Shown here piece by piece: positions 39,866 to 44,721 of a stretch of DNA of 64,000 nucleotides (its first letter is position 1; the number at the start of each line of letters is the position of its first letter). Made by a program: the position numbers and the translations under genes. The DNA is taken from contig JAKOXL010000024.1 in NCBI GenBank assembly GCA_029781045.1, forward strand, positions 149,210 to 213,209, given 5' to 3'. The notes beneath the pieces are model-generated. The model worked only from the letters and a program-made list of their open reading frames with translations. It had not been told where the DNA came from and did not search any database. The DNA is from Bacillota bacterium. GTDB lineage: Bacteria; Bacillota; UBA994; UBA5500.

Positions 39866-40773
39866 ACCTCTTGAAACCACCAGGAATGACTTCGCACGCG
39901 GCTGTCAGCAAAATGCGTAAAATGCTGGGAACTAAGGCCATAGGCCACGGGGGCACGCTGGATCCCGCCGCCACTGGGGTATTACCTTTGGCCGTAGGAC
40001 AAGCCACTCGTCTTCTGGAGTATCTGGTGGAGCAAGATAAGACATATGTCGGTGAAGTAACCTTCGGTATCGCTACAGATACCCTGGACCAGGAAGGGCA
40101 AGTAGTCTGGCGGGCTCCTGAGCCACCGAGTATCGACTTGGCTCAAATAGAGGCAGTTCTTGCATCTATGCTAGGCCCGAGAGAACAAGTCCCACCTACC
40201 TATTCGGCCATCAAGTATCAAGGGCGGCCCTTGTATGAGTACGCGAGGGCTGGTAGAATTGTTCAGGTGCCAGCAAGGCCAATAGTCATTTACTCCCTCT
40301 CAGTAAGAGATTTTAGGGCCGATCCATGGCCTAGGCTACTTTTCCATGTGCGTTGCTCGAAAGGGACCTATGTGCGTAGTTTGGCGCAAGCAATTGCGGA
40401 AGAATTGGGAACTCAAGGAACTCTAACCTTTCTGCTGCGGGAACAAGTGGGCGATTTTTCTGTACAAAATGCTGTAACGCTTGAGGAGATTCAAGAGGCG
40501 GCAGGTAGGGGTAATATCTACCAATATCTGCAGCCATTGGCCCTCGCTCTCAAGGGATGGCCCCAAGTTAGCTTGGAGCCGAGCATTGCCCGTCGTTTCT
40601 TGCAGGGGCAACGCATCAAACTGGCATCCGGAGTGGACGAGGGGCTGGTTGCTGTGTATCAAAGAGCCCACCTGCTCGGAGTGGGTTTGCTAAAGCAGGG
40701 CGTTCTGGCACCTCAGAAGGTATTAGCGAAGTGGGAGGAACTAGCGGAGCATGATCATCACACAAGACTTTGA
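39847..40773 (+). CDS. truB: tRNA pseudouridine-55 synthase TruB
   Basis: This 308-aa enzyme starts MLHGFINLLKPPGMTSHAAV and contains KAIGHGGTLDPAATGVLPLAVGQATRL, where the catalytic Asp is in GTLDP, plus PPTYSAIKYQGRPLYEYARAG and KGTYVRSLAQAI. The C-terminal PUA-like extension is present. It modifies U55 in tRNA. It overlaps both neighbours. Confidence 0.96.
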   Translation: MLHGFINLLKPPGMTSHAAVSKMRKMLGTKAIGHGGTLDPAATGVLPLAVGQATRLLEYLVEQDKTYVGEVTFGIATDTLDQEGQVVWRAPEPPSIDLAQIEAVLASMLGPREQVPPTYSAIKYQGRPLYEYARAGRIVQVPARPIVIYSLSVRDFRADPWPRLLFHVRCSKGTYVRSLAQAIAEELGTQGTLTFLLREQVGDFSVQNAVTLEEIQEAAGRGNIYQYLQPLALALKGWPQVSLEPSIARRFLQGQRIKLASGVDEGLVAVYQRAHLLGVGLLKQGVLAPQKVLAKWEELAEHDHHTRL

Positions 40774-41656
40774 CTCCTTACCCCAGAGGCCCAGGATTTT
40801 TGCTCTTGGCAATTTTGATGGTGTGCACCGGGGGCATCAAGCCCTCTTATCACTTGCGGTAGAATTGGCTCGCCAGCAGCAGGGTATGGCTGTAGCTATG
40901 GGCTTTTGCCCTCACCCTCTTACTGTATTTGGACAAAGGGTTGAGACGATTACCACGGAAAGAGTTAAACAGCGTCTCTTGGCCAGCCTAGGTTTGGATG
41001 CATATTTCGCCCTACCTTTTAACCGAGAGGTGGCCCAGATGTCGCCCGATGATTTTATTCAGCAAGTCTTAATAGAGCAGGCGAAGGTAGCAGCCGTAGT
41101 GGTTGGTTTTAACTATAGCTTTGGGCGCAGGGCTGCAGGTACTCCCGAGTATTTGCAACAGGTTCTAGGAGCGCAAGGTATTGCCGTGCACGTGATACCT
41201 CCTGTTATCTATGATGGAGCACCAGTTAGCAGTAGCCGCATTCGCCAAAGTTTGCGCGATGGAGATTTGGTTACGGTAGAGGCTCTGCTAGGACGTCCTT
41301 TCAGTATTACTGGGATTGTCCAAAAGGGAGATCAGCGAGGACGATTGTTGGGCTTCCCGACGGCCAACTTCTGTGACCTAGAAGGTCTAGCTCTACCTCC
41401 TTTCGGCGTCTATGCGGCAGAGGTTGTTGGCGTGGGATATGCCATGGCCAATCTGGGCGTACGGCCCACCTTCCCCCAAGCGGGTGCCACACTAGAAGTC
41501 CATATCTTTGACTTCACTGGCGATCTTTATGGGCAAGAGTTAGAAGTGAAGTTGTTGAAGTACATTAGGCCAGAGCAGCAGTTTGCTGGTCAAGCAGTCC
41601 TCCAACAGCAGTTGGCAAGAGATAGGCAGCAGATTAGGGCTTTGCTAAGTATCTAG
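40751..41656 (+). CDS. ribF: Bifunctional riboflavin kinase / FAD synthetase RibF
   Basis: This 301-aa enzyme has the nucleotidyltransferase N-domain (ALGNFDGVHRGHQALL, VVVGFNYSFGRRAAGT, SSSRIRQSLRDGDL) and the C-terminal riboflavin-kinase domain (GDQRGRLLGFPTANF, LGVRPTF, LEVHIFDFTGDLYGQELEV). It makes FMN and FAD. It overlaps truB by 23 nt, the conserved truB-ribF pair. Confidence 0.96.
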   Translation: MIITQDFDSLPQRPRIFALGNFDGVHRGHQALLSLAVELARQQQGMAVAMGFCPHPLTVFGQRVETITTERVKQRLLASLGLDAYFALPFNREVAQMSPDDFIQQVLIEQAKVAAVVVGFNYSFGRRAAGTPEYLQQVLGAQGIAVHVIPPVIYDGAPVSSSRIRQSLRDGDLVTVEALLGRPFSITGIVQKGDQRGRLLGFPTANFCDLEGLALPPFGVYAAEVVGVGYAMANLGVRPTFPQAGATLEVHIFDFTGDLYGQELEVKLLKYIRPEQQFAGQAVLQQQLARDRQQIRALLSI

Positions 41657-41708
41657 CTACAACTGGGCGGCATGCCCCTATTCTTTTACGCATAGGGTTT
41701 AATAGCGC

Positions 41709-41737
41709 TTGTGACTTAGATGCTTGCGTGGTAGAAT
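41709..41737 (+). promoter_or_regulatory. Promoter before the two small genes
   Basis: TTGTGA (41709-41714) and TAGAAT (41732-41737) are separated by 17 bp, a good sigma-A promoter. It serves the 68-aa and 73-aa genes, giving them expression independent of ribF. Confidence 0.72.
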
Positions 41738-41752
41738 AGGGGGAGTGTTGCG

Positions 41753-41959
41753 ATGGCTGAAGTACAGTTATGGGTGCTCCTAGGCCTTATCTACGATTTG
41801 GAACAGACGCGTTCGTTTCGCCAGTTGAGGCGCGAACTGGAACGTTACTATCGGCGGCAAAACGCGAAAGGTTATAGGCGGGATGCCTATATCGATAGTA
41901 TGTTGACCCTACTGTTTGAGCAGGATTATGGCCTAGAGCGATTGACAGCTGGGCAGTAA
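41753..41959 (+). CDS. Small helical protein of unknown function
   Basis: This 68-aa protein is predicted largely helical, with a basic middle (RQLRRELERYYRRQNAKGYRRDAY). There is no signal peptide or membrane helix. It is expressed from its own promoter with AGGGGGA upstream and stops 2 nt before the next gene. I do not recognise a family. Its size, helicity and tight pairing with the following RelE/DUF4258-like ORF would suit an antitoxin-like or RNA-binding partner, but this is inference. Confidence 0.6.
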   Translation: MAEVQLWVLLGLIYDLEQTRSFRQLRRELERYYRRQNAKGYRRDAYIDSMLTLLFEQDYGLERLTAGQ

Positions 41960-41961
41960 CC

Positions 41962-42183
41962 ATGCAAATTATAATTAGTGGTCATGCTGTGCGTCGCTTA
42001 CGCAGTCCCCGCCAGGCAGATATCACAATTCATGATTTGCGTGTTGCTGCCAGTAGCCTACCGGGTAAAATCACGGTGGCCACCCGCTTTCGTAATTTTA
42101 GAGGGCAAAAGGGCCGCAGGTTTGATCTGGTAGTCAAAGATACTGCCAAGGGGCGGTTGATTATTACCGTCATTGGCAGGTAA
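41962..42183 (+). CDS. Small DUF4258/RelE-like basic protein
   Basis: This 73-aa basic protein has IIISGHAVRRLRSPRQADITIHDLRVAASSLPG and a beta-rich C-terminus ending GRRFDLVVKDTAKGRLIITVIGR. The pattern H-A-x-x-R near the N-terminus followed by a closing strand (LIITVIG) resembles DUF4258/RelE-fold toxins. There is no membrane segment. It follows the previous gene by 2 nt and is followed at 88 nt by rpsO. Function unknown. Confidence 0.6.
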   Translation: MQIIISGHAVRRLRSPRQADITIHDLRVAASSLPGKITVATRFRNFRGQKGRRFDLVVKDTAKGRLIITVIGR

Positions 42184-42270
42184 AAAGGAACCATGGGCTA
42201 GGATTAACGTTTTCTCCTTACCGTTTTTCTTGGCTGATGGCGATTAGTTATTAGAAGGAGGTGAACTTAC

Positions 42271-42528
42271 GTGGCCAATAAGACCGAGATTATCAACAAG
42301 TATAGACTGCACGAAAACGATACCGGGTCTCCCGAAGTTCAAGTGGCGTTGCTTACAGAGCGCATTAACAGCTTAAGCGCCCATTTGCAGCAGCATCATA
42401 AAGATCATCATTCTCGTCGTGGTTTGTACATGATGATTGGACAGCGGCGCAAACTGTTGAACTATCTGAGGCAAAAAGATGTTGAGCGCTATCGCACACT
42501 TATTGAACAGCTGGGTATTCGCAGATAA
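42271..42528 (+). CDS. rpsO: 30S ribosomal protein S15
   Basis: This 85-aa protein contains [52 protein letters not shown] and [12 protein letters not shown], the complete S15 fold. GTG 42271 follows AGAAGGAGGTGA. It precedes pnp, the conserved order, but has its own terminator. Confidence 0.97.
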
Positions 42529-42636: not shown

Positions 42637-44721
42637 ATGCATAGCTTCTCTATGCAGCTGGCAGGCCGTGAGCTGACCTTAGAAGTGGGGCGACTGGCGA
42701 AACAGGCTCATGGCTCTGTATTGGCAAAGTACGGTGATACATACGTTCTTGTAACGGCAACCGTTTCCAAACAGCCACGCGAGGGCATTGATTTCTTCCC
42801 TCTGTTGGTGGACTACGAGGAGCGGCTGTATTCGGTGGGCAAAATCCCGGGTGGTTTTATTAAGCGAGAAACCCGGCCTGGTGAAAAGGCCATATTGGCT
42901 GCCAGGCTCATTGACCGCCCATTGCGGCCACTGTTCCCTAAGGGTTTCCGCAATGACGTGCAAGTAGTTGCTACCGTGTTATCGGTGGATCAAGACAATA
43001 GCCCTGAGATTACGGCCATGATAGGTGCCTCAGCCGCACTTACCATCTCTAAGATTCCTTTTGCTGGCCCCATTGCTGGAGTTGCTGTGGGTAAGGTCAA
43101 TGGCCAACTGGTGATTAACCCGACACAAGCCCAGACAGATGAGAGCGAACTCTATTTGGTGGTGGCTGGCACTAAGGATGCCATAATGATGGTTGAAGCA
43201 AGGGCCAACGAGGTTCCCGAAGAAGAAATGATTGAGGCCATACTCTTCGGCCACGAGACCATCAAGGAGATTGTGGCCCTACAGGAAGAGATGCGTGCCG
43301 CCATTGGCGAAGAAAAGATGGAGTATCAGGTCTTTATGCCCGATGCCGAATTGCAGCAGGCGGTGGAGGCCTTTGCTAGGGACAAGCTGGAGCAGGCAGT
43401 CCGTCACCCTGTAAAACAAGAACGGGAAGCCAACATGGCCTTAGCTGTGGCGGAGATAGTGGAACACTTCCAAGAGATCTTCCCGGAAAAGGAAAAGGAA
43501 GTGAGGGAAGTAATTCATTCTACGCTGAAACAGGTCGTCCGGGATATGATTGTGAATCATAACGAACGACCTGATGGACGCCGTGCCGATGAAATCCGTC
43601 CCGTTAGCTGTGAGGTCGGAGTTCTACCTCGCGTTCACGGTTCAGGTCTCTTCACCCGTGGCCAAACACAGGTGCTCAGCATAGTTACCCTTGGAGCCAT
43701 GAGTGAGGTCCAGATCTTAGATGATCTAACCGATGATGAAAACAAACGCTACATGCATCATTACAACTTCCCGCCTTACAGCGTAGGTGAGACTAGACCC
43801 ATACGTGGGCCCAGCCGCCGCGATATTGGACATGGTGCCCTAGGAGAAAAGGCACTCCTGCCCATGATTCCCAGCGAGGAAGAGTTCCCCTATGCCATAC
43901 GAGTGGTTTCTGAGGTCTTGGAATCCAACGGGTCCTCTTCGCAAGCCAGCATCTGCGGCAGTACTCTGGCCTTAATGGATGCCGGTGTGCCGATTAAACG
44001 ACCTGTGGCCGGAATTGCCATGGGATTGGTGTGTGAAGGGTCCAATGTTGCCATTCTCTCTGATATTCAGGGCATTGAGGATGCCCTAGGTGATATGGAC
44101 TTCAAGGTTGCAGGTACAGTTAAGGGTGTCACTGCACTGCAGATGGACATCAAGATTTCAGGCGTTGATGCGGACATAATGCGCAGAGCTATGGAGCAGG
44201 CTCGCCAGGGCAGACTCTTCATCTTAGATAAGATGTTGGCAGTTCTACCGGCGCCTAGGCCAGAACTATCGCCCTATGCACCTCGCATGTTGACGCTCAC
44301 TATACCAGTAGAGAAGATCAAAGATGTCATCGGGCCGGGAGGTAAAGTAATCAACAAGATTATTGCAGAAACCGGTGTGAAGATTGACATCGAGGAAGAC
44401 GGCCGCATCTTCATAGCCGCCGTGGATACAGAAGCGGGGCAAAGAGCTAAGCAGATGATAGAAGAGATCACCGCTGAGGTGGAAGTAGGGCGCATCTATC
44501 AAGGTCGGGTAACTCGCGTAGAGAAGTACGGTGTCTTTGTGGAAGTGTTGCCTGGCAAAGAAGGATTAGTCCATATTTCCCAGTTGGATAACGGCCATGT
44601 GGCGAAGACAGAGGATGTATGCCAGTTAGGTGACATTATCCCTGTCAAGGTTACGGAAATTGATCGTATGGGTCGCATTAACCTCTCCCGCAAGGAAGCG
44701 CTGAAGGAGGGCGCCAAGTAA
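42637..44721 (+). CDS. pnp: Polyribonucleotide nucleotidyltransferase (PNPase)
   Basis: This 694-aa protein has two RNase PH domains (the first with [26 protein letters not shown], the second with [28 protein letters not shown] and [19 protein letters not shown]), a KH domain ([30 protein letters not shown]) and an S1 domain ([33 protein letters not shown]). It degrades RNA phosphorolytically. Full length. Confidence 0.97.

Follow-up and report, generated by a model that had tools for sequence, protein, structure and literature searches.

Two small genes, orfA and orfB, lie between ribF and rpsO in a window of 64,000 nucleotides from a Bacillota bacterium, and the question that they raise is whether they form a toxin-antitoxin module or have a ribosome-linked role, two options that the initial annotation, based on the DNA alone, had regarded as equally possible. 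The gene order at the locus is a gene for an nrnA-like DHH protein, truB, ribF, orfA, orfB, rpsO, pnp and a polysaccharide deacetylase-like gene; the names come from reading the translations and are backed by a matching gene order in relatives (Table 1). No account of this locus was found in the literature.

Table 1. Positions of the features discussed, in window coordinates except for the phage homologue.
Feature	Position	Strand	Description
ribF	40751-41656		upstream of orfA
Promoter-like site	41709-41737	+	TTGTGA, 17-nt spacer, TAGAAT, TG before the -10; consensus match
orfA Shine-Dalgarno	41738-41743	+	AGGGGG, read directly in the sequence
orfA	41753-41959	+	68-aa helical protein of a family that has no database name
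orfB	41962-42183	+	73-aa basic protein; divergent DUF4258 (RelE/BECR-type fold)
rpsO leader hairpin	42191-42240	+	conserved, with compensatory changes among relatives
rpsO	42271-42528		downstream of orfB
pnp	42637-44721		downstream of rpsO
Phage OrfB homologue	OR602862.1 122353-122580 (= L125 5995-6222)

The description of the locus as a two-gene unit holds in its coordinates and sizes, in the 2-nt gap between the genes and in the ribF and rpsO flanks. The window's own genome (2.0 Mb in 57 contigs) contains one match each for OrfA and OrfB, and in the two nearest genomes with the site the identity is 84% and 72% for OrfA, and 68% and 67% for OrfB. Substitutions between close relatives are mostly silent, with dN of about 0.11-0.13 and dS of about 0.94 for orfA, and dN of about 0.20-0.22 and dS of about 1.2-1.5 for orfB. 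Since homologues are found in many genomes and are under purifying selection, orfA and orfB are not chance reading frames; they are real genes, and old ones. A third genome of the genus (G001) has neither gene; this absence is uninformative, because rpsO is missing as well from the assembly, which is probably broken there.

Searched alone, the OrfA and OrfB of the window matched no family in Pfam or NCBIfam. When 70 OrfB members were compared with Pfam at E values up to 10, DUF4258 matched 53 of them (best E 4e-4) and was the sole family matching most, the second-best reaching 5 of the 70. Alignment of the OrfB profile by hhalign with one built on 31 true DUF4258 sequences of this phylum gave a probability of 94% and a score of 39.3 over 66 columns, that is, nearly the full length of OrfB, while 100 column-shuffled OrfB profiles scored at most 19.6. 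Moreover, a histidine, an arginine and a threonine that are invariant in all 31 DUF4258 sequences have invariant counterparts in 70/70 OrfB sequences, namely H8, R17 or R12, and T69, the correspondence of the arginine to R17 passing a short insertion in OrfB. The OrfB loci were not among the results when whole genomes were searched with PF14076 at E 0.001 and 1e-5, and OrfB is for this reason a divergent relative of the family and not a listed member. Thus, the profile comparisons support the assignment of OrfB as a divergent DUF4258 (PF14076) protein, and the early call of an HAxxR/DUF4258-like protein proved right in this sense. OrfB departs from DUF4258 in an additional RQ segment that follows the first helix and in an invariant core of its own, ATRFR...GR.FD.V.KD; overall, 17 positions are invariant across the 70 OrfB sequences.

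DUF4258 figures among the 13 families with a BECR fold in the RelE/ParE superfamily. Of these 13, 11 are regarded as confirmed mRNases; DUF4258 has hardly been characterised and is listed with no known target (PMC11980606). The AlphaFold2 model of OrfB, built on a three-row alignment (pLDDT 74, pTM 0.58), has the arrangement H-H-E-E-E (H7-12, H23-31, E41-47, E53-61, E65-71); a single-sequence model with a pLDDT of 44 was discarded. The best PDB match of the model is the RelE-type mRNase toxin HigB2 (E 0.17, TM 0.55), and HigB2/HigBA2 structures occupy ranks 1, 3 and 5, none of them being significant; HigB2-type toxins differ from OrfB, which is often found without a partner gene. Because these fold matches are not significant, the RelE/BECR assignment rests mainly on profile homology. 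No significant match was obtained in a viral fold library, no meaningful one for the OrfB sequence among PDB chains, and no consistent one in PADLOC and PHROGs.

OrfA belongs to a family of proteins of about 65-80 aa, helical as judged from sequence, with conserved positions F22, L25, E28, L29, Y33 and AF.DA. Comparison of its members and profile with Pfam, NCBIfam and PDB returned scattered weak matches and no consistent family, so that the profile searches proposed initially for both proteins lead from OrfB to DUF4258 and from OrfA to no consistent family. A relation to YlbF-type helical proteins was considered and dropped, as YlbF does not appear in the list of 25 Pfam families obtained for OrfA. 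The median pI of OrfA is 4.7 and 89% of its members are acidic, an exception being the OrfA of the window, which is basic (pI 8.1); OrfB is basic in every member, with a median pI of 11.1.

The distribution of the two genes was determined in 398 genomes evenly drawn from the phylum. OrfB is present in 94 of them, as a single copy in each, and OrfA, sought with a 53-row profile at E 0.01 and counted after exclusion of two weak, partial matches that fell within other reading frames, in 76. Both genes occur together in 69 genomes, OrfB only in 25, OrfA only in 7 and neither in 297; the claim that the slot between ribF and rpsO is normally empty is therefore true for about three quarters of the sample. 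The 69 genomes with both genes compare with 18 expected (Fisher p 2e-47, a value inflated by shared descent). Neither OrfA nor OrfB was found in the other families of the window's class (f2 and f3), and direct reading of six f2/f3 genomes showed rpsO next after ribF and nothing that matched either protein. Within two carrier families, OrfB is present in 9/9 and 17/18 genomes, the lone exception being 58% complete. One of the 94 OrfB genomes (G082), which is without OrfA, has an internal stop codon in orfB (L084 1313-1501), probably a dying gene in recent decay.

The site is as regular as the copy number. In all 77 loci that were read, ribF lies upstream of OrfB on the same strand, and in 75 of them rpsO comes after it, usually with pnp next; one of the two exceptions is at a contig end. 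An OrfA homologue adjoins orfB in 54/77 loci, always in the same order, with a spacing that ranges from an overlap to a gap of about 40 nt. Where OrfA occurs without OrfB, in seven genomes, it occupies this slot between ribF and rpsO (for example, L156 1378-1737, L160 2072-2275 and L161 1977-2204), and OrfA may therefore have a function of its own.

OrfB is thus a single-copy gene at a fixed site, for which OrfA is dispensable, and it evolves slowly. Indeed, its median pairwise identity is 64%, to be compared with 74% for rpsO, 67% for pnp and 44% for ribF; the mean column identity is 72% for OrfB and 31% for OrfA, which evolves much faster. Pairwise OrfB distances track those of ribF (r 0.58), pnp (0.48) and rpsO (0.47), each with p 0.001 by permutation, and the distances of these three neighbours track one another about as well (r 0.44-0.62). 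Such tracking is the pattern expected of vertical inheritance.

The signals around the genes complicate the view of the pair as a unit with a good promoter of its own. The promoter-like site is there, and promoter function has some support from the fact that its hexamers and the TG preceding the -10 are for the most part shared by the window and two related species, the -35 varying. However, the scan found one such site where 2.1 were expected, that is, at the chance level, and with the -10 ending at 41737 transcription would be expected to start at about 41744, just past the Shine-Dalgarno of orfA. Either the promoter serves orfB and the downstream genes, with orfA read from ribF transcripts, or the site is something else. 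An inverted repeat, CCCTAT...ATAGGG (41676-41697), with a core conserved in two relatives, is also located between ribF and orfA, and is possibly a weak terminator or a processing site.

Rfam returned nothing useful on the region and did not recognise the hairpin of the rpsO leader. In other families, too, rpsO is preceded by similar hairpins whose loop resembles CUCCGACG, whether orfB is present or absent; since it is found with and without OrfB, the hairpin is probably rpsO's own regulatory leader, outside the OrfA-OrfB unit, and may mediate autoregulation by S15. A role for OrfB in serving this hairpin was rejected on the same ground.

On balance, OrfB is probably a DUF4258 protein with the RelE/BECR fold, now inherited vertically and turned to housekeeping work on RNA or the ribosome, usually in the company of OrfA. 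The targets of RelE-fold proteins are mRNA, mostly within the ribosome, or gyrase (PMC11980606); from these targets, the conserved histidine, arginine and threonine, the many basic residues and the neighbouring rpsO and pnp we infer an RNA- or ribosome-directed activity, an adjacent ribosomal gene being no proof of a ribosomal role. OrfB would bind RNA and, like other proteins of this fold, would probably act on the ribosome or on mRNA under translation. It might be a mild endoribonuclease in which the three residues of the family persist, or else an RNA-binding relic; its endonucleolytic action, if any, might feed PNPase, or it might be limited to binding. OrfA, small, helical and usually acidic, may bind the basic OrfB and modulate it, and could be a former antitoxin, dispensable where a lineage keeps OrfB alone. 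Given the fixed site and the pnp-like conservation, such a role appears the better of the two options offered initially, and not merely an equal one.

A related explanation is that OrfB binds RNA without being catalytic, the RelE fold serving as a mere scaffold; it would then be an accessory factor of the ribosome or of its assembly, or would regulate the rpsO-pnp transcript. Its constant place beside rpsO and pnp, its strongly basic character and its invariant R, G and D residues beyond those of DUF4258 would agree with this; however, the retention of the H, R and T of DUF4258 hints at catalysis, and the rpsO leader hairpin does not depend on OrfB, so that we regard this explanation as rather unlikely.

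Less probable still is an ordinary type II toxin-antitoxin module, with OrfB as a DUF4258/RelE mRNase toxin and OrfA as its antitoxin. The toxin fold, as suggested by the DUF4258 profile homology and the non-significant HigB2 match, would suit such a module, as would two small genes 2 nt apart with the acidic partner first in most genomes, antitoxin-first being the listed gene order of DUF4258 modules. A toxin, however, would be kept only with its antitoxin gene, and more than a quarter of the OrfB genomes (25/94) have no OrfA at the profile threshold of E 0.01, while in seven genomes OrfA occurs alone, the genes lying at the usual site in the loci that were read; in the genomes with OrfB alone, an unrelated antitoxin may be encoded elsewhere. 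Furthermore, toxin-antitoxin genes are expected to be mobile, patchy and often multi-copy, and the true DUF4258 genes of the phylum are patchy (42/299 genomes) and number up to seven per genome, unlike OrfB, which never exceeds one copy, is not mobile and is uniform within the two families. A patchy distribution of the pair had been proposed as a pointer to a toxin-antitoxin module, and a pair at this exact site in all relatives, without a RelE-like or DUF4258 fold, as its opposite; what was found lies between the two, the site being fixed wherever the genes occur, whereas not every relative has the genes and the predicted fold is of the DUF4258/RelE type. Thus, the occurrence of lone OrfB in many lineages, the strict synteny and an evolution nearly as slow as that of pnp make a toxin-antitoxin module improbable.

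The search for mobile relatives points the same way, with a single exception. No OrfB relatives were found in plasmids, nor in IMG/VR contigs by pattern and tblastn searches; a 75-aa homologue, 49% identical, is encoded by the Moorella phage MTATph1 (176.6-kb record OR602862.1), where its neighbours are small genes and a ribonucleotide reductase gene lies downstream. The gene upstream of this homologue was considered as an OrfA and rejected, as it encodes a hydrophobic membrane-like protein. A parallel is offered by RegB of phage T4, which has a RelE/YoeB-like structure and no known antitoxin, acts on mRNA and is stimulated by S1 (PMC3014915). The parallel concerns the way of working and not homology, and it extends to the Moorella phage, whose OrfB homologue is also alone; unlike RegB, which is phage-encoded, OrfB is chromosomal and fixed at one site.

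That OrfA and OrfB are functionally independent small genes sharing an insertion-tolerant slot, as their separate occurrence and variable spacing might suggest, is very improbable in view of their constant order and strong co-occurrence, even allowing for the inflation of the latter by shared descent.

Returning to OrfB as a housekeeping factor, a more specific scenario, possible but put forward tentatively, is that this RelE-fold endoribonuclease or ribosome-binding relic would have served a large group of Bacillota as a core factor of translation or RNA decay since their early radiation, working alongside S15 and PNPase and regulated by OrfA, and a large Moorella phage would have acquired a copy that it uses itself. 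To our knowledge, almost every known RelE-fold protein is a toxin or a part of an immunity or defence system. Judged by sequence comparison, OrfB looks like a new, housekeeping-like branch of this toxin fold family, carried by about a quarter of the related species sampled (94/398) and almost as conserved as rpsO and pnp. If this is true, a RelE-fold toxin would have been domesticated into basic RNA metabolism, at the rpsO-pnp locus, where it would evolve nearly as slowly as PNPase.
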